Shown one piece after another: positions 34,403-55,582 of a stretch of DNA of 64,000 bases. Below the pieces are notes generated by a model. It had not been told where the DNA came from. It saw only the letters and a list, made by a program, of their open reading frames with translations, and made no database searches. This DNA is from Ophiura sarsii (Eukaryota; Echinodermata; Ophiuroidea; Amphilepidida; Ophiuridae). How positions within the stretch are numbered: the first letter of the stretch is position 1; each line of letters starts with the position of its first letter. The stretch is from NCBI GenBank assembly GCA_035610835.1, contig CM069457.1:24050658-24114657 (forward strand). The letters run 5' to 3'. Made by a program: the position numbers and the translations under genes.

Positions 34403-34874
34403 CCTAAAACTCTCCTTGCTATCAATATTTACTTTCGTTATAAAACACTCACATGGTTCAAAAGCTCCCGGCCTCTCCTTTTCCCTCCCCTCCTCCTCCC
34501 GGGCACTCAACTTTTTTTTGGGTAGGGGTATGCCACCCAGGGTCTCAGGGGGCTAAAGAACTGAACTGAGTGGATTTTATGACAAGGAACTTAGGAACTG
34601 ATTTTTTTCTTCAAAAAAGTAGGTCTTGAGAACTGGCCTATGGTTCAATTTTGATTAGCAAGAACGCAAATTTGCGATTTTTTGTGCTTAAGAACGCAAA
34701 ATGTTCGAAGAATTGGGGTTTGGAATGCAAAATTTCGCGTTTTTTGAATTTTCAATCAAATTGGAGTCTTAAAAGAACTGATGCAGGGTGTCATAAGAAC
34801 TAGCAGCAGAGGTGAAAAGGGGGTCTTCAGCGCGGCACATACCTTATTATATCTATACCCTTTTTACAATGTCA

Positions 34875-34985
34875 TTGCCCCCGGCTCCTCCTCCCCGCTC
34901 CTCCTCCCCTCCCTTCCTCCTCTCCTCACTTGTCCTCTCCTCCCCTTCCCTCCCTTTTCCCCCTCTTTTTTTTTTTTCCCCCTCT
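34875..34985 (+). repeat. Polypyrimidine tract
   Basis: About 110 bases of nearly pure C/T with CTCCTCCC words, also present in block copy 2 at about 47030-47125. Such mirror-like tracts can form triplex DNA; the length differs between copies, consistent with slippage. Confidence 0.6.
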
Positions 34986-35689
34986 GGGGACCCGGGGGGC
35001 TTGAGCCCCTAAAGCCCCCCCCCCCCCCCCCCCCCCCTGGGCACGCGCCTGCTCCCCGTCATTACTCTCCCCATCCCTGTCATCCCGGATCCGCGAGAGT
35101 ACTGTCATGACTGTTGTCACTACATTTGTAACGTGGTTTGACACAAACTGCCCTTTGATTATATTGGATAGTGGCTGATCTGGTGGTAATGGGATTGATG
35201 TACTTTTTCAGTTCTTCTATTATAAATTTCTTGAATTGAAAAATTATTAAGGGCGTACTGCTATGTAAGCAAATAGAGAATTTAGGCACCCGATGGTTTT
35301 GTAATCTAGACATTATAATGCAATAGAAATCATAATATGGGAGCATATTTTAGATTGGAACTACCACCATTCACGCCATTTCAATTGGTTGTATACAGGT
35401 ACCTAGTCAAATACTTTATATGACCTTAAATGACCTTTACTTTTTACAGCTATGTATATTTTGCATGAAATCATTGCCAATGGATTGTATGGGTTATGAG
35501 CTTTAATTTGATACCATGCATGATATATTTAGGCTTAATAATGATAAAGACATAAATGTTAAACAATTGTTAAATGGAGAAAGGTCAAAGCAGTATGCTG
35601 GAACATTTAGTGCATGATCATTGAATGAGTATGTACCCATTATAGTATGCAAAACTCTTTCTATATCAATCACGCTGTACGTGAATGCG

Positions 35690-36270
35690 GGCATGTCTGT
35701 TCATAAAAAAAAAACATCTCTCATAATGTGTGCATTTCGTGACAGCTGCGTCTGAGAGTCTTGACATGTCTTGTGAGATAGCAATTAAATGAACAGTATT
35801 TCTGACAATGTCCGTAATATTCATGGTGAATTTGTTTGAAGCATATTTCAGTGTGTTATGATAAAACGACCGTGGCAAAGAATGTTCACATTGTTCAATG
35901 CAACCAGGCCAAATAATTCACTTACTGCTATCACGTTCCTCCATGATAGTATGGATTTACATGTGTGTGTGGTCAGTTGGCCTTCATGGGCAAAGTCCTA
36001 CGGACAATATTTACATTCAAATGGTTTAGTGTGAGTACGTACATGATTTGTCCAACGACCCCTATGTTCAAAGCGTTTCAAACAATATTTACATTGATAA
36101 TAATGTCCGAAGGAATGTCTCTTCGCCCTGCTGATGAGAAGTCTTCTTATTTGTGTGACTGCCAATGCGATTATGTTTTAACAATTCCTCTTTTGGGTAT
36201 TTGGAAACATTGTGTTTCACTTGTTTGTGTTCTGTAAGGGTACTGTGTGCTCAGTCGTATTCATATAACG
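35690..36270 (-). pseudogene. Decayed zinc fingers downstream of gene C
   Basis: Minus-strand finger remnants continue for about 580 bp past the stop of gene C in shifting frames. Examples are CKYCLKRFEHRGRWTNHVRTH near 36060-36120 and CQKYCSFNCYLTRHVKT near 35750-35810. The same remnants lie downstream of gene D (47840-48409), so the decay predates the block duplication. Confidence 0.65.
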
Positions 36271-38325
36271 TCATATTGAGTGAGTGACAACATGTCGTTC
36301 TAAATCACTAATGCTTGCGAAACATATCTGACAATAATCACACTGAAAGGGGTAGCGTGACCGATTATGTTTTGACAATTCACACTTCTGGTTTAAGATT
36401 TCTTTGATATTTGAGATGGGTGTCTTTGCATTCTTCTTGTGATCGTTTACGTGTCTTCGCAAATCACCAATGTCTGCGAATTGTGTCTGACAGTAATCAC
36501 ATTGATAAGGGCGGCATGTCTTAATGTGTTCTGATAACTCATCATTTGCGAAGAACTTGTAGCAATATACACATTTCCCACGATGGTTCAAGCTTTCGTT
36601 TCCATTTGTGTTGGGTGTCTCTGCATTGTTATAACTTTTCTCTACCGTGTGAGTTTCAACGTTAATATTTTGCAAAGCACTACTGTGTGCTAATATTTGT
36701 TGACAAGAACCAGACTGATTGCTGTTGCATGTCTGTACGTGTTTCGACAACTCATTTTTTGCGAAGAATAGGCGGCAGTACCCACACCTTTCAAGATGGC
36801 TCGTGATTTCTTTTATATTTGGGTTGGGTGTCTCTTCATCAGTATGACGGCTGCATGCTTCCGGTATGTGTTTTGACAATTCAAGTCTTTGCTTTCTGAT
36901 ATGTTTTCTCTTATGTGCGTGTTTTAATGTCTTTGTATTGTCATACGCTTTCTTTTTCGCTATGTGAGATTCAACATGTCGTTTCAAAGACTCAATGCCA
37001 GCAAAAAATATCTCACAAATATGACACTGGTACGGATTTTTCTTGGTGCATCTCCGTTTGTGCTTTGGTAAATAATCCCTGGCAAAATATGTACGACAAT
37101 ATTCGCACTGGTTTGGATGCGCTTTTGTACCCATATGTATCTCTTGCAGGTGTTTCGCAAGGTTACCTCTCTTTGTGAAGCTTATCTGGCAATACTGACA
37201 CTGGTGGAGCTGCTCCGTAACGTGTGTTATTTGTATGTGTCTTGTCAAACTACTTTTCTGTGTAAAGTATTTCTGACAGCAATCACACGTATACAGCCCA
37301 GTATATAGTTTATTGTTATCTGAACGAGTCTCTTTTGTAACTTTATGCATCCTAAAGTGTTTTGTAAGGTTATGGCTCTTTGTGAAGCTCATCTGGCAAT
37401 CCTGACACTGGTGAAGCTGCTCATTAACGTGTGTTATCTGAATGTGTATCGTCAAATTATTCATCTCTATAAAATATTTCGGACAGCAATCACACGGATA
37501 CAGTTTTTCATCTCCATGTGAACGCCTTATGTGAATTCCAACGGCCGCCCTATCTGTAAAGGACTTATCGCAATAAACACACGTACATGGATCATGTTCA
37601 TTCATATTATGAGTCTCAGCGTGCCTGGTCATAACCAACTTGTCCACGAAGCTTTTCTTACAATGGTCACATTGGTAGGATTTATTAGTCCCTCTGCATC
37701 TCCGAATGTGTTTCGCAATGCATTTTAAACACTGTTCGCATTGGTGACGTCGGCGCATACCTTGGCCTTCATCGTGGTAAATCTGTGTGTGTCGAGTCAG
37801 GTCGCCTTCCTGCGCAAAGAACATCTGGCAAACGTCACATCGACACAGGTTCTCTTCTGTGTGTTTACGTACGTGAATCATCAGCCCATTCTTATTGGCG
37901 AAATGTTTCTGGCAATATTCACATTCAAACGGAGGTGTACGTTTTATACTTCTCCGGTGTATTTCGATATGTTTGGTAAGACGTTCAGTTTGTGCAAAAT
38001 ATTTCTGACAATGTCCACACTGGTACGGCTTAGTGTGATTGTCATGGTGAATATACCTGTGCCTTATTAGAGCAACATGTCGCGTGAAATATTCCTTGCA
38101 GAGGGAACATCGATACGGTCTATTCTCCTTGTGGGTCGAAGCTGGGGACAGGGGATTATTCTTCCCTGTTGAGCGTACCTGGTTAGTCCATGTGGTAATG
38201 TTATGCCTCATACGGTAACTTCTTGAATACTTGTGTCTTTCAGCATGGTGTCTGTGTCTATCAAACGAGTGGTAGAATCTATGACAGTACGAGCAACGAA
38301 AAGGCTTACATGTAAATGTAGCCAT
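36271..38325 (-). CDS. C2H2 zinc-finger protein C (~18 fingers)
   Basis: An intact single-exon frame of 684 residues runs from the ATG at 38325. It has the family's variant N-terminal finger (PFRCSYCHRFYHSFDRHRHH, residues 8-31), then 17 fingers to residue 682. They include standard C2H2 types (PYQCGHCQKYFAQTERLTKH) and C2HC types ending H-x3-C (CEYCRTYFARDYLPKHKRRC, CVYCYKFFANDELSEHIKTC). Linkers are mostly not TGEKP; several are long and charged. There is no KRAB, BTB, SCAN or obvious activation domain. By family it should bind DNA or RNA in the nucleus; the target is unknown. It is nearly identical to D but has five extra residues after IEIHR. Its distal upstream element is displaced by a 2.05 kb segment. 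Confidence 0.88.
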   Translation of the reverse strand: MATFTCKPFRCSYCHRFYHSFDRHRHHAERHKYSRSYRMRHNITTWTNQVRSTGKNNPLSPASTHKENRPYRCSLCKEYFTRHVALIRHRYIHHDNHTKPYQCGHCQKYFAQTERLTKHIEIHRRSIKRTPPFECEYCQKHFANKNGLMIHVRKHTEENLCRCDVCQMFFAQEGDLTRHTQIYHDEGQGMRRRHQCEQCLKCIAKHIRRCRGTNKSYQCDHCKKSFVDKLVMTRHAETHNMNEHDPCTCVYCDKSFTDRAAVGIHIRRSHGDEKLYPCDCCPKYFIEMNNLTIHIQITHVNEQLHQCQDCQMSFTKSHNLTKHFRMHKVTKETRSDNNKLYTGLYTCDCCQKYFTQKSSLTRHIQITHVTEQLHQCQYCQISFTKRGNLAKHLQEIHMGTKAHPNQCEYCRTYFARDYLPKHKRRCTKKNPYQCHICEIFFAGIESLKRHVESHIAKKKAYDNTKTLKHAHKRKHIRKQRLELSKHIPEACSRHTDEETPNPNIKEITSHLERCGYCRLFFAKNELSKHVQTCNSNQSGSCQQILAHSSALQNINVETHTVEKSYNNAETPNTNGNESLNHRGKCVYCYKFFANDELSEHIKTCRPYQCDYCQTQFADIGDLRRHVNDHKKNAKTPISNIKEILNQKCELSKHNRSRYPFQCDYCQICFASISDLERHVVTHSI

Positions 38326-38343
38326 ACTACTAATTGATTTTTA

Positions 38344-38350
38344 TTTTATA
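38344..38350 (-). promoter_or_regulatory. TATAAAA word before gene C
   Basis: TATAAAA on the minus strand ends 18 bases before the ATG, in the same context as before B and D. The distance is too short for a classical TATA box serving this ATG. Confidence 0.35.
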
Positions 38351-39135
38351 CCGCGACTCCGTTTTAAATTGGTATAGGCCTACTCTCTACAGAGTTTAGC
38401 TTCCCGTTCAAATGAAAGACACTTCTAAACAATGTTGTCCGAAGAAATAATTATACTCAACCATGCTTACTTTCTGAGTCAACGTTGCCAGCCAGCCAAT
38501 TGTTATATCCATTTGCTGTAATTATTGCTTACAGTTAAAGCTTAAACAATATTGATTAATCTACATATATGTAGTCTCCTGTCAGGGTTTCCGTAAAATT
38601 CATTTATAGTAGATGACGGCCATTCATAAACGGTATATCCTAATTACCTGATGTGATGTGTTAGACGCGAATACACCCGACCATAATACCATAGAGAAAT
38701 TAACTAAGGAGGGGTCACTCTTTTTGAAAGTCAAACTGATATGGGCTGGGACGCCCTCAAAAACCGCCAGGTCAATCCAGTTAAATTAGACTACGTTGCA
38801 GTGGCCCGCTTGAAACTTAGTGTATAAAGTGTATGACTGTTTCTGTGCGTAATCCAATAGAGGTAATTAGTCTTACTCTTTTAATAGTTCGGTACAATAC
38901 AGTTATAACAGACTTACATCAGTCTAATGAAATCAGCGCGAAAACGAAGTCACGTAATTGTACACGGTGTCCTAATGAACAATTTTATTTGTCATTGTTT
39001 AAAATGCTAATCGATTCATTGTTTTAATTTTGAAATAAGTATGGGGATCATCAACGCGTACGAAATGTAAAGCTTGAATCACTCCATACTTAATATATCT
39101 TTATCAACGACTATGCCAAAACAGTTAGTCTAGTG

Positions 39136-39205
39136 TGGCGTAGTGGCCACGCTCTAGCGCTTCCACGCAGGAATCCCGGGTTCAATTCCTCATCCAACCA
39201 TATCA
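39136..39205 (+). repeat. tRNA-derived SINE-like head
   Basis: A-box TGGCGTAGTGG (39136-39146) and B-box-like GGTTCAATTCC (39179-39189) have polymerase III promoter spacing. The T-arm does not form a five-pair stem, so a functional tRNA is unlikely. Confidence 0.5.
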
Positions 39206-39690
39206 TTATTATATGGCTGTTTTTTTGTAACATACACGTTCATAGTTAACTCACCGGATCTGAACAAAAGAAAAGCCCCTATAAATTATATATTTTGTAG
39301 TATGGGATAAACGCTGAGGGCTGCTATGCGGTGCAGTGATGATAAACAATTTGATGATTTGATGATGTTATTATATTATGCCACGTTATGCCTTGGTCTA
39401 AATACTCAAAATTAAAAGAAATGCTTATCCTGGGTGCAAGTGTGTTTAGCTCAATTGAAAATTGAAGAAGGCACAAGCCCGGGTGCAAGTTGAATTTACA
39501 AAGCAGAATTTGAACTTTACAAAGCAGACAACTTTGGGCTCTACCTAAGGGTTATGTCATATTACTATGTATGTAATAGGCCTACTCTTCTATTCTCGAG
39601 GTACTGATGGTGTTTTTCAGACTTTTTGAAGTCATATCTTGCAAGGCAAAACGGTTAGAGCAATCAAAGAATGGCAAACCAAGCCTATAC

Positions 39691-39739
39691 AACTGTAAAT
39701 TCTTACAACTTGTAAAGTAAGTTGTAAGAATTTACAGTT
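39691..39739. repeat. Perfect hairpin, 21-bp arms
   Basis: Arms 39691-39711 and 39719-39739 are exact inverted copies with a 7-base loop GTAAAGT. A second hairpin (AAACTGTCTTC, 39852-39862 with 39869-39879) lies 110 bp on. Confidence 0.8.
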
Positions 39740-40780
39740 CTTCATAACACAAGGCTATATGCAATAATGCAAGATGTCCCGCGATGAAATATCACCACGA
39801 AGACACGTAATATAACACGCATATGTACGACCAAACTTAGTTGGTGTCATTAAACTGTCTTCTGTATTGAAGACAGTTTTTATTCTGAGTATGTGTCTTC
39901 TGGCAAATGTGTGCTTCCTGAAGCCGTCGGGGAAGTGTAGTGGCCCGTGTCTTCTAAGCATGATAAGTGGTACTGTTACCGTTCCACACTTGCAAGACAA
40001 GACTTCAAAAACTCGCCAAAAACCGCTCATTTTTACCCAGCGCGACAAGCCCCAAAACCACCTCATTCGCAGCAGGTGCTGCACGTTAAACACACATGAT
40101 TCAATGTATAACATCAAAACTATCAGTATATGAAACAGAGATATGAAGCTATCGAAATAGAGCTGTCGTCTGAGGCTAACCTCTATAGACTTATGCAAGT
40201 CTTTATTTACGCTATATTGTTATTGTTTACGCTAGTTGTTCAACGTGTATTCATTCATGTGTGTGTGGGTGCTTGTTGCATTTCCCCCTCACATAGAATA
40301 TATTATTTCATTACAACTACTGCATGTAGTGTGGTGATGCGTTGGCTTGCGAATTAAAAACTACAATGCAAGAGCTTGTTGAGAGGCTAAGCTCGGACGA
40401 AACTGTGTCCAAGCTCTGTGTAGCCCCACTTGGATTGTCTAGGTTTTTGCCGGACAAACCTTAACTGGATTGGACTGGCGAATTTAGAGGGCGGTATACA
40501 CGGTGTTTTCAACATACTGCGTGGAACCCGATAGTTTATTTTGAATGTATAAATCGTATTCAAAATGGGAACCAAGACAATACAGGGTAATTCTTAAACT
40601 GCCGAAAGTCAATGGCTTTCTCCACGTTGTTCTCAGCATTTAGCCGGTCCCGTCTTTGTTAAGAATTGTTTCTATCAGATTTGCACGTTGTATCGGAGTC
40701 GCAGCCGCCGAGAATCTCAGTAGCAGGGGCCTGATAATACTTACAGGGGCAGCATCACATCGCTTTGTGTTTGTATAATT

Positions 40781-40798
40781 GGTATCGTAGGCGTCGCG
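40781..40798 (-). promoter_or_regulatory. Conserved upstream element of gene C (displaced)
   Basis: GGTATCGTAGGCGTCGCG followed by GCCCTCCTAGGTTACTGG is identical to the element of D. It lies 2,456 bp from the ATG of C, against 405 bp in D, because of the intervening 2.04 kb segment. Confidence 0.5.
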
Positions 40799-41189
40799 AA
40801 CATTTTGCCCTCCTAGGTTACTGGAAATTGCCCATCACTTTTTCGATTATGCATGGCGTACTGTGGTGAATTAATATTCGATGCAGACGATGGCAGACCC
40901 GTGGCGGACACGGCCGGGCGTGTTTTCGAATATTCAACCCGTACTCACCAACCCGTAAAATCTTCTAGCGGGTGCCTGCTAGTATTTATTTAATATCGAC
41001 CCCTACAAATACAAACATGTACACCATATTTGTACTTGTTACTACGGACGGGTATTAAAGGGGCACAGAGAAATCGGTATGGGGTTGCGCCCTCAATTTT
41101 CCAGGAAATTGTGTGTTTTTTGCACCAAAGTAATCAGGCTCGTAAGCAGGATTTTTTAGGGGGGGGGGGGGCGCATTTTCTGGAAAAGG

Positions 41190-41197
41190 TAGGCCTA
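41190..41197. other. TAGGCCTA where copy 2 has TA
   Basis: Copy 1 reads AAAAGGTAGGCCTACATGGG; copy 2 (51661-51673) reads AAAAGGTACATGGG. The difference is exactly a six-base TAGGCC at a TA dinucleotide. See findings. Confidence 0.9.
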
Positions 41198-41410
41198 CAT
41201 GGGTACCCAAAATATCGAAAATGTTGCCCCAATTGTTGTTTTAGTCATCTCAGAAAAATTGGAGTGCGTCTTATAGTTGATGATGTACAGATAGGGTGAA
41301 CAGTGACAGGGGAACTTGCGGCTGCAGACAATTACCCGCGTATTTTAGATAAAGATGTGTTGTTATTCAGATAGCCAGAAGTACATAAAGTAACGTAACA
41401 TCATATTCCG

Positions 41411-41470
41411 TATCGTGGTTATTATAACTGTTTCTTTATATGTCACGGGTTCGATTCCCGCACCGGCTCA
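41411..41470 (+). repeat. tRNA-derived SINE-like head (also in copy 2 near 51930)
   Basis: The B-box GGTTCGATTCC (41448-41458) sits in a fair T-arm (CGGG/CCCG stem) and TATCGTGGTTA upstream is A-box-like. The acceptor stem does not pair. The copy 2 version has a one-base loss within the arm. Confidence 0.45.
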
Positions 41471-42360
41471 CGTCCTTGCTTTTTAAATTGGGATACGAGT
41501 CGAGGCTTGTTTAATGTTCGTTTGAGTTGTGGAACTTGCGGTAGGGATTAAGAGTTATCTGCCTCGCTGTTAAATTATTTAAATTGTTCAAGTTCCCTAT
41601 TGAATCGCCTATGCGATCCTCTATATGTTGGTATGTGATGCGTAACCCTTAGTCTCATCTTCGGATGTGGTGTTTGTATGTGTTTCTTTATTGTTAGGAC
41701 AAATGGTTTTGTATTACTAGGTTTATACAAAATGAATGATGATTGCATTATTTCATTTTTTCTCTCAAATAACGTAGAACGGATATTTTGTATTTTAAAT
41801 TGTGTCTCCTTTATTCCACGTTCATAATGAGAATGGAATATAATAACTAGTATCCACTAAATTTTGAATAGGTGAAATGACAAATAAAATATTTTTCTTT
41901 CTAAAACGGGATACGGTCAATTTGTTTTTATTGTGGTGACCGCATCCAAAAGGGATAACATAACATATTTCAAGCTGATGGATTAATTATTTGGTTGTCG
42001 TGATTATAAAGCTACATGATCAGCTCCATTCATAAGCCACGCCGTCATGATTAGCATTTATGGAGCGCAAATAATAACATACATTAAGGCCGTGTGTTTT
42101 GAACTCGCCACCCTTACCGTTGCATGTCCAGATTATTAAATTGTACACCATCTGAGATTCGAATTAGCATATCGCAATAATTATTGTTCTACCCCATACA
42201 AAGTATATATTTTCTGAACGAGGAACAAGGAATCCAAATATGCTATTAGAATTTAGATAAGACGTAATGGTAACATTTTTTGTGATATTAAGAATGTTAA
42301 ACAAATATCGATATTTTTTTCTTCATGTTTTGATTTAAGCTCAATAATATTTTTTATACC

Positions 42361-42368
42361 TAGGCCTA
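42361..42368. other. Second TAGGCCTA where copy 2 has TA
   Basis: Copy 1 reads TATACCTAGGCCTATTCC; copy 2 (52826-52837) reads TATACCTATTCC. Again the difference is one TAGGCC at TA. Confidence 0.9.
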
Positions 42369-43649
42369 TTCCAATCATAATTTTACTGTGCATATTTAAA
42401 TTCCTCAGCAATTACCCATCAGAACATAATAGTTGTCAATGGTAAACATGTTGAAATATACTATATCGAGAAGTAAATGAGCACAAACGTTAACATTTCA
42501 TATTTATTAGAGTTTACAAGTATATATTTTTTGGTATGCACCCTATCCTGATTTAAACGGCATTTTTGAATTCCCCTATTTGAGAGCTTCCCAAAAATGT
42601 ACAATTTTGCTATCATCGGTTTTTTTAAATTTTTATAGTCATGCTTGTAAAACCGATGAATTAGGGCAAGTTCACTGTGTAGCGAATAGGGAAAAAGTCA
42701 AGGGCAATGCAATCGATGCATGATTACATTGTTACACAATAGTTGTCACATTTGATGAAACAGAATCTTACAAAATACAAAATAATCTATAAAATGAGAG
42801 CAAAATCATGTTTGTACCATTGGATGAGGAGTTATAGTAAATTGAACGTAGAATTGGGAACATTTTCTATATTCCACAGTAGATATTATCCACAGCGCCG
42901 CCAACACCGCCCCTGACTTTCACAACATAATCAATCATATCTCAGCCAAACATTTGTAGAAATACCTGATTCATTCACACAATGCAGCTAGGTAAATAGG
43001 CTTTCACATGATACCTCAACCATAGCTCTACCACATTTAGTTGTTGAGTTAATATAGAGAGAGATGGATGATTCGTCACCAAAAATGCAACGCCACCACC
43101 CTTTTTGGGTGGCGAGTTCAAAACACATGGCCATAAATGTACCGCTGTTTCATCATTGGTCAACATTGGTTTCTCTAACGCCCAATGGACATGGTCAAGA
43201 CTCGAAACCGATCGGCCAGAGTTTATGAATCTACAGCTATCTATAGCTATAACCGAAATTTTATTTCATTCAAATTGGCTATTCGAAACGGGAGATATGT
43301 GCATTTTTCCAAATTCTGTAAAATAAAAATTAATCTGTTCCATCTTATTTAAAGGATCCCTATGGATGTTAAAGTTTAACGCGCGCCTTTTGCGTAAGTC
43401 AATCAAAGGCGTATTGGTATTCACAATACTTACACTAGGAAAAGAGATTCTATTGTCTTTGCGGTTATGTTTTTAATAGTTTTCGTGCAATCAGAGATAG
43501 CCTATTTATAACAAACATTAGTAAGTGTTAACAAAATGTTGACCAACTAAGTATTTGAAACTTGCTATTTTAATCGAACTGATATGAGAGAAGTCTGACA
43601 TGACTGAGAGAAAAACAGATAATATATTTATTTTGGATTATCATTACGC

Positions 43650-45440
43650 TCCAGTTTCTTCTGTTGAGCACTTTGGAAATCACCATGGATGGGCTTGAGT
43701 GTACCAACTTGGGATACTCTACCAAGAATATACCAGCACCAGACAAGAAAGACTACCTGAAACGTTTTATTGCTAAAACAGAAACCTTCATGAGAAATGT
43801 CAGATGGCGAACTTTTTTCTTTCTAAATCCTGACATCACTACTGAAAAGAAGAAAACATATGGATTCAAATCTACTAAAAACCCACCTTATATTCCGGAA
43901 CTTAAACAATTTGAAGATGGTATGCTTGATTTGGTGCAAAACGTCGAATTTACAAATCCTGGGAACACCAAAGCTTTTCAAAAACAGCTGTCGCAGCGAT
44001 GTCAACGATATAAAAAAGACGACAAAATATAAAGTATATATAAAGTCAAACCAGATCAATATAATAAACTACTGGATAAGAACATCACTAAGGACTATTA
44101 ACATGATTAAAGAGAACCACCGCTTCATCTGAGAAACAACACACTTGAAGACAAGATCATTGCATCTAAACTAGACCTCGATGACCGAATAGACACTACT
44201 ACTATACAGCTAAAAGCCAGACATTCATCACCCTTAAAGATCATAAATAGAGCTTCAATAACAATCCATCGTGTCGACTTATTAACCCTTGCAAATCTGA
44301 AATCGGAAAATTAGTAAACAAATACTGGAAATAATCAACGAGAAAATTGTCAAATCAACAAAACTCAACCAATGGGAAGAACACCGATGATGTAATATGC
44401 TGGTACAACAGTGTACATAATAAACATAAGAGCTCATTTATTTGCTTTTACGTCCGTGAATTTTACCCGGGGGGGGGGGGTACTCGGATTTGGTTTGGTC
44501 GGGGGTGTGCCGCTGGAGATTCAAAACCCATACCCATTTTTAGGGGTAATTTTGGAAAAATCGGGTACCCATTTTTAGGGGTTTTGCTTCATTTTAGACC
44601 AATTTTTCGCAAATTATCGGAAAATAGACCTATTTTTTGCAAATTTTCGCGAAAATATACCTAATTTTTGCAAATTTTCGCGAAAATATACCTAATTTTT
44701 GCAAATTTTCGCGAAAATATACCTAATTTTTGCAAATTTTCGCGAAAATATACCTAATTTTTGCAAATTTTCGCGAAAATAGACCCATTTGTAAAAAGTG
44801 ACCCCATTATTAGGGCTTCTAGCACAAAATCATACCCCAGTGTTTAGGGATTTTGTGCCCAAAAAGCTACCCATTAGAGCGGCACACCCCCCGGTATACC
44901 GTCTTGGGTGAGTACCCCCCCCCCCCCTCCCCCCCCCCCCCCCCCCCCCGGGGACTTTTATCCTTCAATCACTGATGAATTACTAAACAAAGCTCTGGAG
45001 TTCGCATCCCAATATGCTGACATCTCGGACAATGAGAAAGATATCATTCTTAATGCCAAAAAGTCTATGTTATACAACAACGAAACTCCATGGTGTAAAC
45101 GCCAAAATCCCGACTTCGATGTTACCAATGGGAAGCTTTGATGGCGCCGAGACATGTGAATTAATCGGACTCTATCTTCTGTCTCAGTTACAACACCTTG
45201 GCGTAAACGTGGGGCTTATACAGAGATGACGGTCTTGCGATCTGCCACAAAACACCCAGACAAGCTTGAGCTCATCAAGAAAAAGATATATGCCATATTT
45301 GCCAAAAACAATCTGCAAATTACAATCGAGGCCAACAAGAAAACATTGGACTTCCTTGATATCACATTGAACTTAACAACTGGCACGTATAAACCATATA
45401 TGAAGCCGAACAACCCCGGCGAACAACTCGCCGTTGTATG
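43650..45440 (+). pseudogene. Reverse-transcriptase-like mobile-element gene, broken
   Basis: The frame from about 43664 includes YGFKSTKNPPYIPELKQFED. After shifts it continues through TFITLKDHK (then a stop), SCRLINPCKSEIGKLVNK, and FYP, where the G/C-capped element 44469-44952 interrupts. It resumes with DFYPSITDELLNKALEFA, GSFDGAETCELIGLYLLSQL and, after another shift, ITIEANKKTLDFLDITLNL. FYPSI (motif A-like) and the SFDGAE to GLYLL stretch are typical of a reverse-transcriptase family common in marine invertebrates; I cannot name its clade securely. At least three frame or stop lesions plus the insertion make it dead. It begins directly at the right border of block copy 1. Confidence 0.65.
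44469..44952. mobile_element. G/C-capped element, copy 2, inside the RT pseudogene
   Basis: It starts with a 12-G run and the same TACTCGGATTTGGTTTGG as copy 1, and ends with a 35-base C tract (one T) plus GGG. The flanks GAATTTTACCC (44458-44468) and GACTTTTATCC (44953-44963) are a diverged 11-bp target duplication; both encode the same FYP of the interrupted gene. The interior carries about five tandem 31-bp units containing GCAAATTTTCGCGAAAATA. Confidence 0.75.
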
Positions 45441-46475
45441 CAGGGATGGAAATAAGACCCGCCCCGCCCGCCCATAGCGGGTAACTTCGTGTCGGGCGGG
45501 TGACGATACAAAGGTACCCGTCCGACTGGCGGGTAACATTTCTGAAGCTCAAAGTGTAAGTAACAGTAAGTTCATAGTGCAGTTATGCTCCGTGGCAAAC
45601 GAGCGACAACCCTTGACACACTTACCAGGTTTAACAAAACTTTAATCATGTTTCACAAATTAGCCCCGATTAGTCAATTGATACTTGAGCTCTCTCAAGC
45701 CAATGAACGAGCTGGTCAACGACCTACGGGTCGACCCGTTCATCTATTGTTTGAGCTGATACTGATAAGGAATAGTCGATATCTAGACAAAATAGGGGTG
45801 TTTGTTAAGAAATAGGCCCCATAGTAGTTGAAGCAAATGGACTTATTATATAGAACAAGTCCATGATTTAAGAGATAGATGGAACCATTATTGTTTAGAA
45901 TTAGTATTATCTAAAATATCTACAATTTAAATGAATAATTCTTATTTGTTTAATATTTCAAATTCTGGTACTTGTTTTATAAATAGATATGTATTTTAAT
46001 TATACCTATTTATACCCATATAACACATAATACTGTAAAACGACTTAATTTTGCTAGCAATTTAATTTCACGATACGGTCCAATTCACCAAATTAATTTG
46101 CTTTCAATTATATTATATTATTTTTATATTATTTATCAATGGTTTTAGCCTACTGAAAGATCATAAGAATTTGTAAAATTAAATTGCCCCCAATATATAT
46201 GTCCCAATTAGTCCCAAGAAGCGCCATCCGTAGGTTTTCAATACAACCATGTCCATGGGTGTGTAAGCCACCATCCCTCACCAAAAATGGTAGGGCCAAT
46301 CGATAAGGTCGATCTCTCTCACACGCACGGTCCGCTGATCGCTAAATTTGACTGGTTAGTTTGTGATGACTAGTGGACATATAGGTTTGTTGAAGAGTCT
46401 ATGGTACTGCTTTCTCAAGGTCCTAGAATATCAAACAAAGGCTTGAGATGTAAAGTGGGCCCGCCCTCTTTATAC
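45441..46475. other. No gene seen; possible hAT-like end
   Basis: CAGGGATGGAAATAAG near 45440 resembles a hAT-type terminus followed by GCCCGCCC-rich sequence, but no partner end was found. The rest to the gap is A/T-rich and non-coding by eye. Confidence 0.35.
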
Positions 46476-46575
46476 NNNNNNNNNNNNNNNNNNNNNNNNN
46501 NNNNNNNNNNNNNNNNNNNNNNNNNNNNNNNNNNNNNNNNNNNNNNNNNNNNNNNNNNNNNNNNNNNNNNNNNNN
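46476..46575. other. Assembly gap (100 N)
   Basis: Exactly 100 Ns, the usual convention for a scaffold gap of unknown size. Block copy 2 begins at its right edge, so the true left border of copy 2 is not known. Confidence 0.98.
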
Positions 46576-47839
46576 CCTAAAACTCTCCTTGCTATCAATA
46601 TTTACTTTCGTTATAAAACACTCACATGGTTCAAAAGCTCCCGGCCTCTCCTTTTCCCTCCCCTCCTCCTCCCGGGCACTCAACTTTTTTTTGGGTAGGG
46701 GTATGCCACCCAGGGTCTCAGGGGCTAAAGAACTGAACTGAGTGGATTTTCTTCAAAAAGTAGGTCTTGAGAACTGGCCTATGGTTCAATTTTGATTAGC
46801 AAGAACGCAAATTTGCGATTTTTTGTGCTTAAGAACGCAAAATGTTCGAAGAATTGGGGTTTGGAATGCAAAATTTCGCGTTTTTTGAATTTTCAATCAA
46901 ATTGGAGTCTTAAAAGAACTGGTGCAGGCTCAATAGGGGTGTCATAAGAACTAGCAGCAGAGGTGAAAAGGGGGTCTTCAGCGCGGCACATACCTTATTA
47001 TATCTATACCCTTGTTACAATGTCATTGCCCCCGGCTCCTCCTCCCCCTCCCTTCCTCCTCTCCTCACTTGTCCTCTCCTCTCCCCTTCCCTTCCCTCCC
47101 TTTTCCCCCTCTTTTTTTTTTTTACCCTCTGGGGACCCGGGGGCTTGAGCCCCCAAAGGCCCCCCCCCCCCCCCCCTTGGCACGCGCCTGCTCCCCGTCA
47201 TTACTCTCTCCCCCTCCATCCCTGTCATCCCGGATCCGCGAGAGTACTGTCATGACTGTTGTCACTACATTTGTAACGTGGTTTGACACAAACTGCCCTT
47301 TGATTATATTGGATAGTGGCTGATCTGGTGGTAATGGGATTGATGTACTTTTTCAGTTCTTCTATTATAAATTTCTTGAATTGAAAAATTATTAAGGGCG
47401 TACTGAAATGTATGCAAATAGAGAATTTAGGCACCCGATGGTTTTGTAATCTAGACATTATAATGCAATAGAAATCATAATATGGGAGCATATTTTAGAT
47501 TGGAACTACCACCATTCACGCTATTTCAATTGGTTGTATACAGGTACCTAGTCAAATACTTTATATGACCTTAAATGACCTTTACTTTTTACAGCTATGT
47601 ATATTTTGCATGAAATCATTGCCAATGGATTGTATGGGTTATGAGCTTTAATTTGATACCATGCATGATATATTTAGGCTTAATAATGATAAAGACATAA
47701 ATTTTAATCAATTGTTAAATGGAGAAAGGTCAAAGCAGTATGCTGGAACATTTAGTGCATGATCGTTGAATGAGTATGTACCCATTATAGTATGCAAAAC
47801 TCTTTCTTATATCAATCACGTTGTACGTGAATGCGGGCA

Positions 47840-48409
47840 TGTCTGTTCATAAAAAAAAACATCTCTCACAATGTGTGCATTTCGTGACAGCTGCGTCTGA
47901 GAGTCTTGACATGTCTTGTGAGATAGCAATTAAATGAACAGTATTTCTGACAATGTCCGTAATATTCATGGTGAATTTGTTTGAAGCATATTTCAGTGTG
48001 TTATGATAAAACGACCGTGGCAAAGAATGTTCACATTGTTCAACCAGGCCAAATAATTCACTTACTGCTATCACGTTCCTCCATGATAGTATGGATTTAC
48101 ATGTGTGTGTGGTCAGTTGGCCTTCATGGGCAAAGTCCTACGGACAATATTCACATTCAAATGGTTTAGTGTGAGTACGTACATGATATTCCAACGACCC
48201 CTATGTTCAAAGCATTTCAAACAATATTTACATTGATAATAATGTCCGAAGGAATGTCTCTTCGCCCTGCTGATGAGAAGTCTTCTTATTTGTGTGACTG
48301 CCAATGCGATTATGTTTTAACAATTCCTCTTTTGGGTATTTGGAAACATTGTGTTTCACTTGTTTGTGTTCTGTAAGGGTACTGTGTGCTCAGTCGTATT
48401 CATATAACG
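47840..48409 (-). pseudogene. Decayed zinc fingers downstream of gene D
   Basis: The counterpart of the remnants after gene C, with the same broken fingers (CKYCLKCFEHRGRW near 48200-48240) and slightly different small indels. Confidence 0.65.
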
Positions 48410-50449
48410 TCATATTGAGTGAGTGACAACATGTCGTTCTAAATCACTAATGCTTGCGAAACATATCTGACAATAATCACACTGAAAGGGGTAGCGTGAC
48501 CGATTATGTTTTGACAATTCACACTTCTGGTTTAAGATTTCTTTAATATTTGGGATGGGTGTCTTTGCATTCTTCTTGTGATCGTTTACGTGTCTTCGCA
48601 AATCACCAATGTCTGCGAATTGTGTCTGACAGTAATCACATTGATAAGGGCGGCATGTCTTAATGTGTTCTGATAACTCATCATTTGCGAAGAACTTGTA
48701 GCAATATACACATTTCCCACGATGGTTCAAGCTTTCGTTTCCATTTGTGTTGGGTGTCTCTGCATTGTTATAACTTTTCTCTACCGTGTGAGTTTCAACG
48801 TTAATATTTTGCAAAGCACTACTGTGTGCTAATATTTGTTGACAAGAACCAGACTGATTGCTGTTGCATGTCTGTACGTGTTTCGACAACTCATTTTTTG
48901 CGAAGAATAGGCGGCAGTACCCACACCTTTCAAGATGGCTCGTGATTTCTTTTATATTTGGGTCGGGTGTCTCTTCATCAGTATGACGGCTGCATGCTTC
49001 CGGTATGTGTTTTGACAATTCAAGTCTTTGCTTTCTGATATGTTTTCTCTTATGTGCGTGTTTTAATGTCTTTGTATTGTCATACGCTTTCTTTTTCGCT
49101 ATGTGAGATTCAACATGTCGTTTCAAAGACTCAATGCCAGCAAAAAATATCTCACAAATATGACACTGGTACGGATTTTTCTTGGTGCATCTCCGTTTGT
49201 GCTTTGGTAAATAATCCCTGGCAAAATATGTACGACAATATTCGCACTGGTTTGGATGCGCTTTTGTACCCATATGTATCTCTTGCAGGTGTTTCGCAAG
49301 GTTACCTCTCTTTGTGAAGCTTATCTGGCAATACTGACACTGGTGGAGCTGCTCCGTAACGTGTGTTATTTGTATGTGTCTTGTCAAACTACTTTTCTGT
49401 GTAAAGTATTTCTGACAGCAATCACACGTATACAGCCCAGTATATAGTTTATTGTTATCTGAACGAGTCTCTTTTGTAACTTTATGCATCCTAAAGTGTT
49501 TTGTAAGGTTATGGCTCTGTGTGAAGCTCATCTGGCAATCCTGACACTGGTGAAGCTGCTCATTAACGTGTGTTATCTGAATGTGTATCGTCAAATTATT
49601 CATCTCTATAAAATATTTCGGACAGCAATCACACGGATACAGTTTTTCATCTCCATGTGAACGCCTTATGTGAATTCCAACGGCCGCCCTATCTGTAAAG
49701 GACTTATCGCAATAAACACACGTACATGGATCATGTTCATTCATATTATGAGTCTCAGCGTGCCTGGTCATAACCAACTTGTCCACGAAGCTTTTCTTAC
49801 AATGGTCACATTGGTAGGATTTATTAGTCCCTCTGCATCTCCGAATGTGTTTCGCAATGCATTTTAAACACTGTTCGCATTGGTGACGTCGGCGCATACC
49901 TTGGCCTTCATCGTGGTAAATCTGTGTGTGTCGAGTCAGGTCGCCTTCCTGCGCAAAGAACATCTGGCAAACGTCACATCGACACAGGTTCTCTTCTGTG
50001 TGTTTACGTACGTGAATCATCAGCCCATTCTTATTGGCGAAATGTTTCTGGCAATATTCACATTCAAACGGAGGTGTACGGTGTATTTCGATATGTTTGG
50101 TAAGACGTTCAGTTTGTGCAAAATATTTCTGACAATGTCCACACTGGTACGGCTTAGTGTGATTGTCATGGTGAATATACCTGTGCCTTATTAGAGCAAC
50201 ATGTCGCGTGAAATATTCCTTGCAGAGGGAACATCGATACGGTCTATTCTCCTTGTGGGTCGAAGCTGGGGACAGGGGATTATTCTTCCCTGTTGAGCGT
50301 ACCTTGTTAGTCCATGTGTTAATGTTATGCCTCATACGGTAACTTCTTGAATACTTGTGTCTTTCAGCATGGTGTCTGTGTCTATCAAACGAGTGGTAGA
50401 ATCTATGACAGTACGAGCAACGAAAAGGCTTACATGTAAATGTAGCCAT
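48410..50449 (-). CDS. C2H2 zinc-finger protein D (~18 fingers)
   Basis: An intact 679-residue frame from the ATG at 50449, almost identical to protein C. It has the same variant first finger and the same 17 following C2H2/C2HC fingers. It lacks five residues between finger 3 and PPFECEYC (an in-frame 15-base loss) and differs by scattered substitutions (for example NINTWTNKVRST for NITTWTNQVRST). Both frames remain open, so both copies, if both are real, appear to have been kept free of stops. Upstream it retains the compact promoter arrangement, with the conserved element 405 bp from the ATG. Function is inferred from the family only: a nuclear zinc-finger protein with unknown target. Confidence 0.88.
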   Translation of the reverse strand: MATFTCKPFRCSYCHRFYHSFDRHRHHAERHKYSRSYRMRHNINTWTNKVRSTGKNNPLSPASTHKENRPYRCSLCKEYFTRHVALIRHRYIHHDNHTKPYQCGHCQKYFAQTERLTKHIEIHRTPPFECEYCQKHFANKNGLMIHVRKHTEENLCRCDVCQMFFAQEGDLTRHTQIYHDEGQGMRRRHQCEQCLKCIAKHIRRCRGTNKSYQCDHCKKSFVDKLVMTRHAETHNMNEHDPCTCVYCDKSFTDRAAVGIHIRRSHGDEKLYPCDCCPKYFIEMNNLTIHIQITHVNEQLHQCQDCQMSFTQSHNLTKHFRMHKVTKETRSDNNKLYTGLYTCDCCQKYFTQKSSLTRHIQITHVTEQLHQCQYCQISFTKRGNLAKHLQEIHMGTKAHPNQCEYCRTYFARDYLPKHKRRCTKKNPYQCHICEIFFAGIESLKRHVESHIAKKKAYDNTKTLKHAHKRKHIRKQRLELSKHIPEACSRHTDEETPDPNIKEITSHLERCGYCRLFFAKNELSKHVQTCNSNQSGSCQQILAHSSALQNINVETHTVEKSYNNAETPNTNGNESLNHRGKCVYCYKFFANDELSEHIKTCRPYQCDYCQTQFADIGDLRRHVNDHKKNAKTPIPNIKEILNQKCELSKHNRSRYPFQCDYCQICFASISDLERHVVTHSI

Positions 50450-50853
50450 ACTACTAATTGATTTTTATTTTATACCGCGACTCCGTTTGAAATTGGTATA
50501 GGCCTACTCTCTACAGAGTTTAGCTTCCCGTTCAAATGAAAGACACTTCTAAACAATGTTGTCCGAAGAAATAATTATACTCAACCATGCATACTTTCTG
50601 AGTCAACGTTGCCAGCCAGCCAATTGTTATATCCATTTGCTGTAATTATTGCTTACAGTTAAAGCTTAAACAATATTTATTAATCTACATATATGTAGTC
50701 TCCTGTCAGGGTTTCCGTAAAATTCATTTATAGTAGATGACGGCCATTCATAAACGGTATATCCTAATTACCTGATGTGATGTGTTAGACGCGAATACAC
50801 CCGACCATAATACTTACAGGGGCAGCATCACATCGCTTTGTGTTTGTATAATT

Positions 50854-50871
50854 GGTATCGTAGGCGTCGCG
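50854..50871 (-). promoter_or_regulatory. Conserved upstream element of gene D
   Basis: GGTATCGTAGGCGTCGCG with adjacent GCCCTCCTAGGTTACTGG lies 405 bp from the ATG of D. This is the least disturbed example of the family arrangement. Confidence 0.5.
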
Positions 50872-51097
50872 AACATTTTGCCCTCCTAGGTTACTGGAAA
50901 TTGCCCATCACTTTTTCGATTATGCATGATGGCGTACTGTGGTGAATTAATATTCGATGCAGACGATGGCAGACCCGTGGCGGACACGGCCGGGCGTGTT
51001 TTCGAATATTCAACCCGTACTCACCAACCCGTAAAATCTTCTAGCGGGTGCCTGCTAGTATTTATTTAATATCGACCCCTACAAATACAAACATGTA

Positions 51098-51495
51098 CAC
51101 TCTAAGAAATTAAAGAACCCCTTTTTGTCCTGCCAGGAGAACCCTTAAAGGTTCTTTAAAGAACCAAAAACAGTTCCCCAAACGTGATACAGAACCATTT
51201 CTGGTTGATACAGAACCATTTTTGGTTCTATGAATAACCTAGTTTGGTTCTTCAATTTTCAAGAACCTTTTTTGAAGGTTCAAGAGAGAGGTTCTTTATA
51301 GAACCGTCATCGAACCTTCAAAAAGGGTTCTTGAAAATTAAAGATCCCCAAAAGGTTCTTCATAGAACCAAAAATGGTTCTGTATCAACCAAAAATGGTT
51401 CTGTATCATGTTTGGGGAACTATTTTTGGTTCTTTAAAGAACCTTTAAGGGTTCTCCTGGCAGGACAACTTTAGAACCATTTTTTTCTGAGAGTG
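51098..51495. mobile_element. TA-flanked MITE rich in GGTTCT/AGAACC
   Basis: The ends are TA|CACTCTAAGAAA and TTTCTGAGAGTG|TA. The empty site in copy 1 reads CATGTACACC (TA at 41020-41021), which proves the 398-bp insertion and the TA duplication. The whole element is a near-palindrome densely packed with AGAACC and GGTTCT hexamers. Tc1/mariner-group MITE by target site; no coding capacity. Confidence 0.85.
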
Positions 51496-53465
51496 TACAC
51501 CATATTTGTACTTGTTACTACGGACGGGTATTAAAGGGGCACAGAGAAATCGGTATGGGGTTGCGCCCTCAATTTTCCAGGAAATTGTGTTTTTTTTGCA
51601 CCAAAGTAATCAGGCTCGTAAGCAGGATTTTTTTAGGGGGGGGGGGGGCGCATTTTCTGGAAAAGGTACATGGGTACCCAAAATATCGAAAATGTTGACC
51701 CAAATTTTGTTTTAGTCATCTCAGAAAAATTGGAGTGCGTCTTATAGTTGATGATGTACAGCTAGGGTGAACAGTGACAGGGGAACTTGCGGCTGCAGAC
51801 AATTACCCGCGTATTTTAGATAAAGATGTGTTGTTATTCAGATTGCCAGTATAGTACATAAAAAATACATAAAGTAACGTAACATCATATTCCGTATCGT
51901 GGTTATTATAACTGTTTCTTTATATGTCACGGGTTCGATTCCGCAACCGGCTCACGTCCTTGCTTTTTAAATTGGGATACGAGTCGAGGCTTGTTTAATG
52001 TTTGTTTGAGTTGTGGAACTTGCGGTAGTTATCTGCATCGCTGTTAAATTATTTAAATTGTTCAAGTTCCCTATTGAATCGCCTATGCGATCCTCTATAT
52101 GTTGGTATGTGATGCGTAACCCTTAGTCTCATCTTCGGATGTGGTGTTTGTATGTGTTTCTTTATTGTTAGGACAAATGGTTTTGTATTACTAGGTTTAT
52201 ACAAAATGAATGATGATTGCATTATTTCATTTTTTCTCTCAAATAACGTAGAACGGATATTTTGTATTTTAAATTGTGTCTCCTTTATTCCACGTTCATA
52301 ATGAGAATGGAATATAATAACTAGTATCCACTAAATTTTGAATAGGTGAAATGACAAATAAAATATTTTTCTTTCTAAAACGGGATACGGTCAATTTGTT
52401 TTTATTGTGGTGACCGCATCCAAAAGGGATAACATAACATATTTCAAGCTGATGGATTAATTATTTGGTTGTCGTGATTATAAAGCTACATGATCAGCTC
52501 CATTCATAAGCCACGCCGTCATGATTAGCATTTATGGAGCGCAAATAATAACATACATTAAGGCCGTGTGTTTTGAACTCGCCACCCTTACCGTTGCATG
52601 TCCAGATTATTAAATTGTACACCATCTGAGATTCGAATTAGCATATCGCAATAACTATTGTTCTACCCCATACAAAGTATATATTTTCTGAACGAGGAAC
52701 AAGGAATCCAAATATGCTATTAGAATTTAGATAAGACGTAATGGTAACATATTGTGATATTAAGAATGTTAAACAAATATCGATATTTTTTTTTCATGTT
52801 TTGATTTAAGCTCAATAATATTTTTTATACCTATTCCAATCATAATTTTACTGTGCATATTTAAATTCCTCATGCAATTACCCATCAGAACATAATAGTT
52901 GTCAATGGTAAACATGTTGAAATATACTATATCGAGAAGTAAATGAGCACAAACGTTAACATTTCATATTTATTAGAGTTTACAAGTATATATATTTTTG
53001 GTATGCACCCTATCCTGATTTAAACGGCATTTTTGAATTCCCCTATTTGAGAGCTTCCTAAAAATGTACAATTTTGCTATCATCGGTTAATTTTTTTAAT
53101 TTTTATAGTCATGCTTGTAAAACCGATGAATTAGGGCAAGTTCACTGTGTAGCGAATAGGGAAAAAGTCAAGGGCAATGCAATCGATGCATGATTACATT
53201 GTTACACAATAGTTGTCACATTTGTTGAAACAGTATCTTATAGAATATAAAATAATCTATAAAATGAGAGCAAAATCATGTTTGTACCATGGGATGAAGA
53301 GTTATAGTAAATTGAACGTAGAATTGGGTACATTTTCTATATTCCACATATTGTGCACAGCGCCGCCGCCACCGCCCCTGACTTTCACAACATAATCAAT
53401 CATATCTCAGCCATTGTAGAAATACCTGATTCATTCACACAATGTAGCTAGATAAATAGGCTTTC

Positions 53466-53882
53466 CAGGGTTGCACAAAGTTGTTTCTTCCCCAGGAGCA
53501 AGGTTTTGAGCTTAACATTTCCCCACCTATACTTACAGGTAAAAAATTGCCTTTTTATGCTAAAATAGTCGATTTTTTTCTAATTTTAACTATTTTTGTT
53601 GTTGTTGAGGGGATGGGGGCACCCAGGGCACAACATATCTTTTGGGGAAATGCCCTCCCCTTGCCCCATGTAGCGTCGCCACTGGGGAAAAGCAATAAAA
53701 CAATAAACACGTTAGTATACCTGCAACCACAGCTTATAACCCAAAGTTTGCATTTTTTTCTCTTCATCTTTTTTCACCTTTTCCCCAATACTTTTTCTTT
53801 TTCCACTTGGCATTATTTCCCCAATTCTGCTCATTATTTCCCGGGAGCGGTGCTCCCTGCTCTCGCACTTTGTGCAACCCTG
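53466..53882. mobile_element. hAT-like MITE (CAGGGTTGCACAAAGT), polymorphic
   Basis: Ends CAGGGTTGCACAAAGT and ACTTTGTGCAACCCTG are exact inverted copies. AGGCTTTC flanks both sides (53458-53465 and 53883-53890) and occurs once at the empty site in copy 1 (42998-43005). A 417-bp non-autonomous hAT-type element. The 180-codon frame running across it has no domain and is not supported. Confidence 0.88.
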
Positions 53883-54501
53883 AGGCTTTCACATGATACC
53901 TCAACCATAACTCTACCACATTTAGTTGTTGAGTTAATATATAGAGAGAGATTGATGATTCGTCACCAAAAATGCAACGCCACCACCCTTTTTGGGTGGC
54001 GAGTTCAAAACACATGGCCATAAATGTACCGCTGTTTCATCATTGGTCAACATTGGTTTCTCTAACGCCCAATGGACATGGTTAAGACTCGAAACCGATC
54101 GGCTCGAGTTTATGAATCTACAGCTATCTATAGCTATAACCGAAACTTTATTTCATTCAAATTGGCTATTCGAAACGGAAGATATGTGCATTTTTCCAAA
54201 TTCTGTAAAATAAAAATTAATCTGTTCCATCTTATTTAAAGGATCCCTATGGATGTTAAAGTTTAACGCGCGCCTTTTGCATAAGTCAATCAAAGGCGTA
54301 TTGGTATTCACAATACTTACACTAGGAAAAGAGATTATTGTCTTTGCGGTTATGTTTTTAATAGTTTTCGTGCAATCAGAGATAGCCTATAACAAACATT
54401 AGTAAGTGTTAACAAAATGTTGACCAACTAAGTATTTGAAACTTGTTATTTTAAGCGAACTGATATGAGAGAAGTCTGACATGACTGAGAGAAAAACAGA
54501 T

Positions 54502-55582
54502 CATATAAGATATGCCTTTAAACAGTTTGTGCTTGGATTTCGTGTCGTAAAATATGTCGTAAATCTGGCGTGGAAGATATTGTCTTGAAAACATCACCGG
54601 GTATGAACAAATATGTCTACTCTCATAATCAATGAAAACATTTAACAATTTTGTACACAAAGTATTTTTTTTAAACTTAAATGTGTCATATACTTTTGTC
54701 ATACTATTTGTTACAAATTTATATTCGATTTCCCCGACTGTCGCCTTGGATACAATAAAGTTCTTACAAACGTTTTAATTCCCACGAATGGGTGTAATTC
54801 CAACAAACGGGTCGGGTGTATATTCCCACGAATGGGTGTAATTCCCACGAATGGGTGTAATTCGCCCAATGACTCAACACAATTTTGCTGGGTTACCTGT
54901 TCCTGAATAACATGCGCGCGTAACGCGGGAAATTGTTGATACATCTATATATATATTTAAGGTATATTTTGGTTTTAAATTGCTTTTGGTTCCCTGGACG
55001 GACGCCTTGGAATTTAACAGAATACATTTTTCAAATGAGCGCGACTCATGTTATTCTGAAAACAATCATTTATACACCTGCCGCCCCGTTGAAGGACGAG
55101 GTTAACTTTGTACGTCACCATTAATATTAAGTAATTCAATCCAAAGACACCTACAATTTGTAACATTAAACTGTTAAACATGCGAGGCTCAAACAATAAA
55201 TGGACACAAAATAAAAATGAAATACAATCACCGAAATGCATGAGACAACTCATATAATCAGTCTTTTTGAACTTCTAGACTAGTGGTGGGTTGGCAAGAT
55301 GGTGCGGGTTCGAAATCGCCAGCGTACATACACAAGCGTACATAATGGTACATAAGTATTTGTGATGCGCATTCAAAGATACAAAAATACAATAAGAACA
55401 ATACATCATTTTAACATAAGTATATGATAAACAATAGAAACAATGAAAGGCAGCAATATAACGGAAGATCATTCTATCCTAGATAAACAAACAGTAAGTT
55501 CTGTCAGCAGTCATATGATACTCGAGTATGACCTTAAAAGAGTCTATTTTAAACATTAGGCCTATATTTTTACACGTATTAA
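54502..55582. other. No gene seen; short minisatellite inside
   Basis: Frames at 54451-54702 and 54711-54944 are not recognised. Around 54775-54865 a CCCACGAATGGGTGTAATT unit is repeated about four times. GCGGGTTCGAAATCGCC near 55306 resembles a B-box without a tRNA fold. Confidence 0.4.

Follow-up and report, generated by a model that had tools for sequence, protein, structure and literature searches.

The 64,000-nucleotide window of Ophiura sarsii DNA, by which we mean the whole stretch that was analysed, raises the question of why one octamer, TAGGCCTA, recurs in it and why it alternates with a plain TA between two near-identical copies. The original prediction had listed 14 octamers, all of which prove exact, and had expected roughly one from base composition. 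Dinucleotide-preserving shuffles of the window (n=100) give a mean of 0.57, and 14 or more octamers are reached in 0 of the 100. The features are as follows, with a strand given only where one is assigned.

99..106, TAGGCCTA within a repeat family, also in three other C1 copies; one C1 copy has TAGCCCTA
6366..6373, TAGGCCTA, flanks unique within the sample
10736..10743, TAGGCCTA, flanks unique within the sample
11273..11280, TAGGCCTA, flanks unique within the sample
23149..23156, TAGGCCTA, flanks unique within the sample
32736..32743, TAGGCCTA, flanks unique within the sample
33693..33700, TAGGCCTA, flanks unique within the sample
34403..43626, + strand, copy 1 of the near-identical pair
38375..38382, TAGGCCTA, common to copy 1 and copy 2 (50499)
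39577..39584, TAGGCCTA in a 2-kb stretch of copy 1 that copy 2 does not have
41190..41197, TAGGCCTA, TA in copy 2 at 51667-51668
42361..42368, TAGGCCTA, an insertion; TA in copy 2 (52832-52833) and in three diverged C1 family copies
46476..46575, scaffold gap of 100 N
46576..54507, + strand, copy 2 of the near-identical pair, starting directly after the N gap
50499..50506, TAGGCCTA, copy 2 counterpart of 38375; the paralogue near 24073 is without octamer, alignment ambiguous
51667..51668, plain TA, uninserted allele of 41190 (copy 1/copy 2 alignment)
52832..52833, plain TA, uninserted allele of 42361 (copy 1/copy 2 alignment and family copies)
55557..55564, TAGGCCTA, flanks unique within the sample
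59832..59839, TAGGCCTA, flanks unique within the sample

Octamer excess across the genome

The excess extends genome-wide, which favours the original prediction. In the 1.57-Gb genome TAGGCCTA occurs 190,499 times and the reversed word 11,706 times; with flank limits the counts are 126,911 and 6,472. Since the reversed word contains CpG, it is not an entirely fair control. A sample of 295,859 bases holds 33 octamers against a Markov expectation of 1.7-2.5, and among the 16 outer dinucleotides around the GGCC palindrome the TA-flanked form alone stands out strongly there. Both the excess of TAGGCCTA and its alternation with TA are confirmed. Among the titles and abstract openings listed in a literature search, which for the octamer itself covered 40 of 182 papers, there was no published report of the enrichment; this does not prove its absence in print. 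The main text of a paper that probably describes this genome contains the word TAGGCC 0 times.

Other observations concern the distribution of such words. TACATGTA and TAAGCTTA are also in excess in the 295,859-base sample. The octamers on C1 are modestly clustered, with 17 gaps of at most 1 kb against 9.8 expected (p=0.016, for 95 of the 100 C1 sites listed), a weak effect on which we do not build. Viral contigs contain a two-octamer pattern in at least 120 stretches, as by chance, and were left out of the argument.

Insertion of TAGGCC at 42361

Copy 1 and copy 2 differ by 98 substitutions over 7,088 aligned positions (1.4%) and by 28 small indels, of which 3 are six bases long, with three larger insertions falling between the aligned segments. 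Because of this low divergence and the start of copy 2 at the 100-N gap, the pair probably represents two haplotypes or a recent duplication. Two of the 28 small indels, both among the three of six bases, are the TA/TAGGCCTA differences. Alignment bears out both alternations that had been read from the window, the octamer at 41190-41197 facing TA at 51667-51668 and the octamer at 42361-42368 facing TA at 52832-52833. Three octamers of copy 1 are comparable with copy 2; two differ and one, 38375/50499, is common to both.

At 42361 the polarity is visible. The equivalent position is TA in 4 of 5 copies, namely copy 2 and three diverged members of the family (two of the three being tandem duplicates of each other), which shows that TAGGCC was inserted at 42361 and not lost elsewhere. 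At 41190 the comparison is with copy 2 only. The proposal that a process inserts or removes TAGGCC at TA therefore stands as insertion at 42361 and as either gain or loss at 41190; the 42361 site gives clean insertion evidence and the other sites fit insertion. A suggested third case, 50499 against the paralogue at 24073, is ambiguous: the paralogue is indeed without octamer, but a 15-base gap adjoins and MAFFT aligns it across the octamer ungapped.

The process had further been called active. Presence and absence between near-identical copies suggest that it is active or recent, but near-identical C1 copies (0.75-1.1% apart) show no octamer difference, with 6 of 6 and 3 of 3 in common. TAGGCC was compared with other hexamers among indels in about 354 kb, where the AGGCCT class accounts for 2 of 24 distinct six-base insertion places, in independent contexts; the other classes with differing contexts are AATAAT (3) and ACATAT (2), both AT-rich.

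Sharpness and flanks of the unit

TAGGCCTA is a sharp unit without a cloud of decayed or degenerate forms. In the 295,859 bases, core substitutions number 38 (32-36 expected), arm substitutions 30 (24-30 expected) and arm insertions 5 (4-5 expected); arm deletions, 26 against 19-25 expected, are not clearly null. Core-length changes between intact TAs are in excess, chiefly the core deletion TAGGCTA, seen 40 times (37 distinct places) against 17.5-21 expected in the same sample, and core insertions number 22 (18 distinct) against 7.5-9.5 expected. Genome-wide, TAGGCTA occurs 128,059 times against 65,030 for its reversed word. TAGCTA was rejected as a third scar form. Its 78 occurrences are mostly repeat copies, the distinct places number 55 where 46-49 are expected, and a clean series from GGCC through GGC to GC therefore does not emerge.

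The octamers also prefer certain flanks. At 96 sites the base just outside TA is C at 1.89x, T at 1.16x, A at 0.57x and G at 0.45x (p=5.9e-11), and G+C is reduced 6 bases out. The resulting pattern, purine-TA...TA-pyrimidine, differs from ATATATAT, and a bias of this kind would be expected for target choice by an enzyme. For TAGGCTA the outside pyrimidine fraction is 0.649 against a background of 0.53; since the core-insertion words have no flank bias (pyrimidine 0.50) and the control word TACCCTA reaches 0.656, the flanks lend TAGGCTA weak support. Slightly more matches join left and right octamer flanks than after shuffling (161 against 141.5, p=0.028), a weak likeness that simple insertion does not predict and on which we do not build.

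Origin of the octamer

The best fit, tentative and at somewhat less than even confidence, is that the octamers are scars left by cut-and-paste transposition at TA. In this model an element would be inserted at TA by a transposase of the Tc1/mariner kind and later excised by slightly staggered cuts, after which end joining would leave end bases between two TAs; GGCC placed into a TA with doubling of the TA would give TAGGCCTA. An unseen element with 5'-GGC...GCC-3' ends and 3-base overhangs could pair through the GC that ends each overhang and after fill-in yield TA-GGCC-TA, full-register pairing of the overhangs giving TAGGCTA or TAGCCTA as a minor product. Alternatively, two-base GG overhangs could be filled in and joined to GGCC. 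At 41190 and 42361 the octamer does have additional bases enclosed by a pair of TAs, in contrast to the single TA of the empty site. We infer such an origin for most of the 190,499 copies, together with the transposase, the overhang model and the recency. Against scars, exact GGCC far outnumbers the variants, the scars of the cited elements are shorter and more varied, and the near-identical C1 copies keep their octamers.

A search of 354 kb turned up no TA-bounded element ending in GGC or GGCC. The sole TA-bounded GG...CC family found there is the GGGAGC...GCTCCC MITE (C1:951806-952231 and C1:842865-843302), about 430 bases long with TA on both sides and 577 exact ends genome-wide. The earlier remark that no TA-flanked GG...CC element is visible thus holds for the window, with this one family elsewhere in the genome. 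Its ends fit, but its target is AYANTA and G precedes TA at 1 of 68 MITE ends, compared with 69 of 192 flanks at octamer sites (chi-square p=6e-7); this difference in target preference excludes it as the source. Three further candidates were dropped. In the TAGGCCGTCAAATTTC inverted repeat (L152 2263-3037) the repeat extends past TA, in TAGGAAATC (C1:933407-933923) the arms extend outside with a 2-base offset, so that neither is TA-bounded, and the TTAGGCCAACAACAAAA family has about 90 bases in common without a paired end being seen.

The failure to find a source element in 354 kb also suits a minimal insertion process, in which GGCC would be added directly to a TA that some enzyme or repair pathway has opened with a 2-base stagger, the site never having contained a larger element. 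The exact and uniform product, the doubled TA, the flank preference and the empty TA states without a larger insert at the same place agree with it. End joining would explain more naturally why core-length variants, TAGGCTA above all, are in excess, and no enzyme is known to add GGCC directly at TA; we consider this process unlikely. The original prediction had offered both an excision footprint and a minimal insertion unit; the footprint is favoured of the two, and the interpretation overall is partly supported. Rather unlikely in our estimate is the smallest mobile insertion, TA-specific, which would repeatedly add self-complementary GGCC and double the TA, with no resident element and nearly two hundred thousand copies; the excess of TACATGTA and TAAGCTTA would then represent sister products with other tetramers.

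A functional motif under selection, with new sites arising by ordinary mutation, would account for the palindrome, the modest clustering on C1 and the flank preference, and ZFX-type zinc-finger proteins bind AGGCCT-containing sites. We regard it as quite unlikely, as one-step substitution neighbours occur at expectation and the 42361 site was made by insertion of a whole six-base unit. Spread within one or more repeat families finds support in a minority of sites, among them the octamer at 99, which forms one family with C1 sites near 823.8, 834.0, 862.0 and 767.9 kb that carry TAGGCCTA or TAGCCCTA, and repeated flanks occur among the C1 sites listed. As the main cause, such spread is refuted in the sample, where 33 of 33 octamers of the single-copy sample have distinct flanks and other copies of the family around 42361 are without octamer; on the whole it is very unlikely. 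The two-base direct repeats flanking the core, and the difference at 41190, which may be a gain or a loss, would allow a deletion-prone octamer that collapses to TA, its enrichment having another cause. This is most improbable given the TA state at 42361 in 4 of 5 copies and in the diverged family and the retention of the octamer in 9 of 9 C1 comparisons, and it leaves the enrichment unexplained. That copy 1 and copy 2 meet at a scaffold gap makes theirs a comparison between assembled haplotypes or duplicates and might suggest a sequencing, polishing or assembly artefact, which is scarcely credible for 190,499 places with varied flanks and independently assembled C1 copies that agree.

If the octamers are scars, nearly two hundred thousand past transposition events can be counted in the genome, the work of an element now rare or gone, and the relative numbers of GGCC and GGC scars would make the germ-line repair outcome readable. 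If they are not, the addition of a fixed tetramer at TA would be a new way for small insertions to arise. The six-base unit leaves the reading frame intact and lengthens it by two codons, although in one of the three frames it brings a stop, and TAGGCCTA creates StuI/HaeIII-type sites at TA genome-wide.

The scar reading invites comparison with the IS630-Tc1-mariner group. The cited passages describe CAG or CTG between two TAs for SB (PMC3952818), footprints of 0-3 bases for ZB (PMC7913693) and 0-4 bases for Passer (PMC9976928), and, for Tc1 in the soma of worms, a scar that is typically +4 (PMC13148408). Stowaway-type MITEs are described there as mariner-related, leaving a TA duplication and end bases (PMC4561436), and GGCC filler is not reported in the passages on them. 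Unlike these systems, the octamer has no matching element in 354 kb, and its target is R-TA-Y, whereas that of ZB and SB is given as ATATATAT (PMC7913693). Like Tc1/mariner footprints, the octamer sites have a doubled TA with few bases between; their preference around TA and the pattern of mostly one product with a length variant may be further points of likeness. Where the footprints in the cited passages usually have 2-3 varied filler bases, the octamer has 4, palindromic and nearly invariant in 190,499 places.

Abundance and shape of the octamer

The octamer TAGGCCTA, GGCC between two TAs, occurs 14 times in the window and at the positions originally listed (dinucleotide shuffles, n=100: mean 0.57, maximum 4). 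Across the assembly (1,573,662,873 bases, 748 contigs; the window is C17:24050658-24114657, C17 being CM069457.1) we count 190,499 copies against 11,706 for the reversed control word, which contains CpG, so that its count may be low for a separate reason. The density is about one per 8.3 kb genome-wide, and the window lies above average. A stretch on C1, another contig of the assembly, holds six octamers in 600 bases (L150, C1:271596-272174); a 106-base tandem copy contains two of these, and two are separated by just three bases. The window also contains many G or C runs of 25-39 (5021-5059 and others).

In 235,859 unselected single-copy bases we observe 32 octamers versus 1.4-2.1 expected, and its 12 one-substitution classes total 55 versus 46-52 expected. 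Length changes of the GGCC core are listed below beside changes of the TA arms.

Octamer variants in 295,859 bases, octamers masked out for the expectations (observed; expected; distinct places where counted)
Core substitutions: 38; 32-36
Arm substitutions: 30; 24-30
Arm deletion: 26; 19-25
Arm insertions: 5; 4-5
Core deletion TAGGCTA: 40; 17.5-21; 37
Core insertions: 22; 7.5-9.5; 18
TAGGTA/TACCTA: 122; 115-130
TAGCTA: 78; 46-49; only 55, which makes the excess unsafe
Octamer: 33 distinct places

Genome-wide with flank limits, TAGGCTA is found 128,059 times versus 65,030 for its reversed word. A fixed word with core-length changes between intact TAs does not resemble decay, nor a degenerate motif for protein binding.

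Among the 16 TA-XYY'X'-TA words three stand out, plus the simple repeat TATATATA: the octamer (33 versus 1.7-2.5 expected), TACATGTA (42 versus 9-11) and TAAGCTTA (15 versus 3.5-5.9), the latter two noted for L009-L028 (sampled stretches, C1:780001-980000; whole sample). Of the 16 flanked forms of the GGCC palindrome, only the one between TAs is in strong excess; for CATG, CGCATGCG is high too (9 versus 1.1). At 96 octamer sites (82 on C1, the other 14 in the window and on further contigs; 12 flank positions tested), the outer neighbour of each TA is C in 69 cases, T in 75, A in 35 and G in 13, with 36.6, 64.8, 61.4 and 29.2 expected (p=5.9e-11), and G+C is lower at position 6 (p=0.005). TACATGTA lacks this flank preference. 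In a smaller sample the pyrimidine fraction outside TA is 0.697 for the octamer, 0.649 for TAGGCTA (0.656 for the control word TACCCTA), 0.50 for core insertions and 0.447 for core substitutions, against a background of 0.53.

Gain and sharing of the TAGGCC unit

34403..43626 (+), copy 1
46576..54507 (+), copy 2, near-identical to copy 1
38690-40733, about 2 kb in copy 1 only, ATAATAC on each side, including octamer 39577
51099-51495, inverted-repeat element in copy 2, ends CACTCTAAGAAA...TTTCTGAGAGTG, TA on both sides; copy 1 has one TA instead
53466-53882, MITE in copy 2 only, CAGGGTTGCACAAAG ends, 8-base duplication AGGCTTTC; presumably hAT-like

Copy 2 starts immediately after a 100-N gap (46476-46575) and is colinear with copy 1, which suggests a haplotype left unremoved or a recent duplication, the two being indistinguishable here. 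With such copies seemingly side by side across the gap, a zinc-finger gene (C2H2 by Pfam) is duplicated within 46476-54507 and 34403-43626.

Across 7,088 aligned positions the copies differ by 98 substitutions (1.4%), and there are 28 small indels. The TAGGCC-at-TA differences originally described at 41190 and 42361 are both borne out, as two of the three six-base indels; for the third, probable case, the octamer at 50499 against a paralogue with TA near 24073, the alignment is ambiguous. In the sampled sequence a homologous place was found for 17 of 52 distinct octamer sites; of these it is cleanly empty for two, 41190 and 42361. At 42361, TTTTTATACCTA lacking the unit stands in copy 2 and in three C1 family copies, near 810.8, 829.2 and 857.2 kb, of which the latter pair duplicate each other; TAGGCC was therefore gained there. 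C1:275913 carries an octamer that both window copies lack (near 41.6 and 52.1 kb), but a 3-base difference adjoins it; C1:831532 versus C1:972358 (72% identical) is empty by BLAST and not clear by MAFFT.

Octamers are common to tandem C1 copies 0.75% apart in 6 of 6 cases and shared with a third copy 0.8-1.1% away in 3 of 3, which counts against turnover. Some octamers are old, since in one repeat family the octamer or TAGCCCTA is common to copies with no more than about 76-84% identity. C1:825465-839452 and 853438-868615 are nearly identical tandem duplicates, and a third copy is present in part near 766-768 kb.

Possible origin of the octamer

The best reading of the octamer, held tentatively, is a scar left when a cut-and-paste element that targets TA and ends in GG or GGC was excised, the element itself being unseen here. 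Excision would leave GGC 3' overhangs whose last two bases pair before fill-in, giving TAGGCCTA as main product and TAGGCTA/TAGCCTA as minor ones. The chief rival, a process inserting GGCC directly, we consider rather unlikely. A search of about 354 kb for TA-bounded inverted-repeat elements gave 91 candidates, many of which read one repeat in several overlapping ways; three start with GG, and a direct search of 13,388 TAGG...CCTA pairs gave no further TA-bounded GGC element. The GGGAGC family, a TA-bounded MITE with GGGAGCTTTCG ends (C1:951806-952231, C1:842865-843302; 577 exact ends genome-wide), was rejected as source because its target is AYANTA and G precedes TA at 1 of 68 ends versus 69 of 192 octamer flanks. 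A partial reverse transcriptase ORF lies at 56635-57594 (Pfam RVT_1, E=1.8e-21).

Passages of PMC3952818, PMC7913693, PMC9976928, PMC13148408 and PMC2170065 describe known excision footprints, and for the brittle star Amphiura filiformis (1.57-Gb assembly) a passage of PMC11310086 gives a DNA transposon burst at about 2% divergence.
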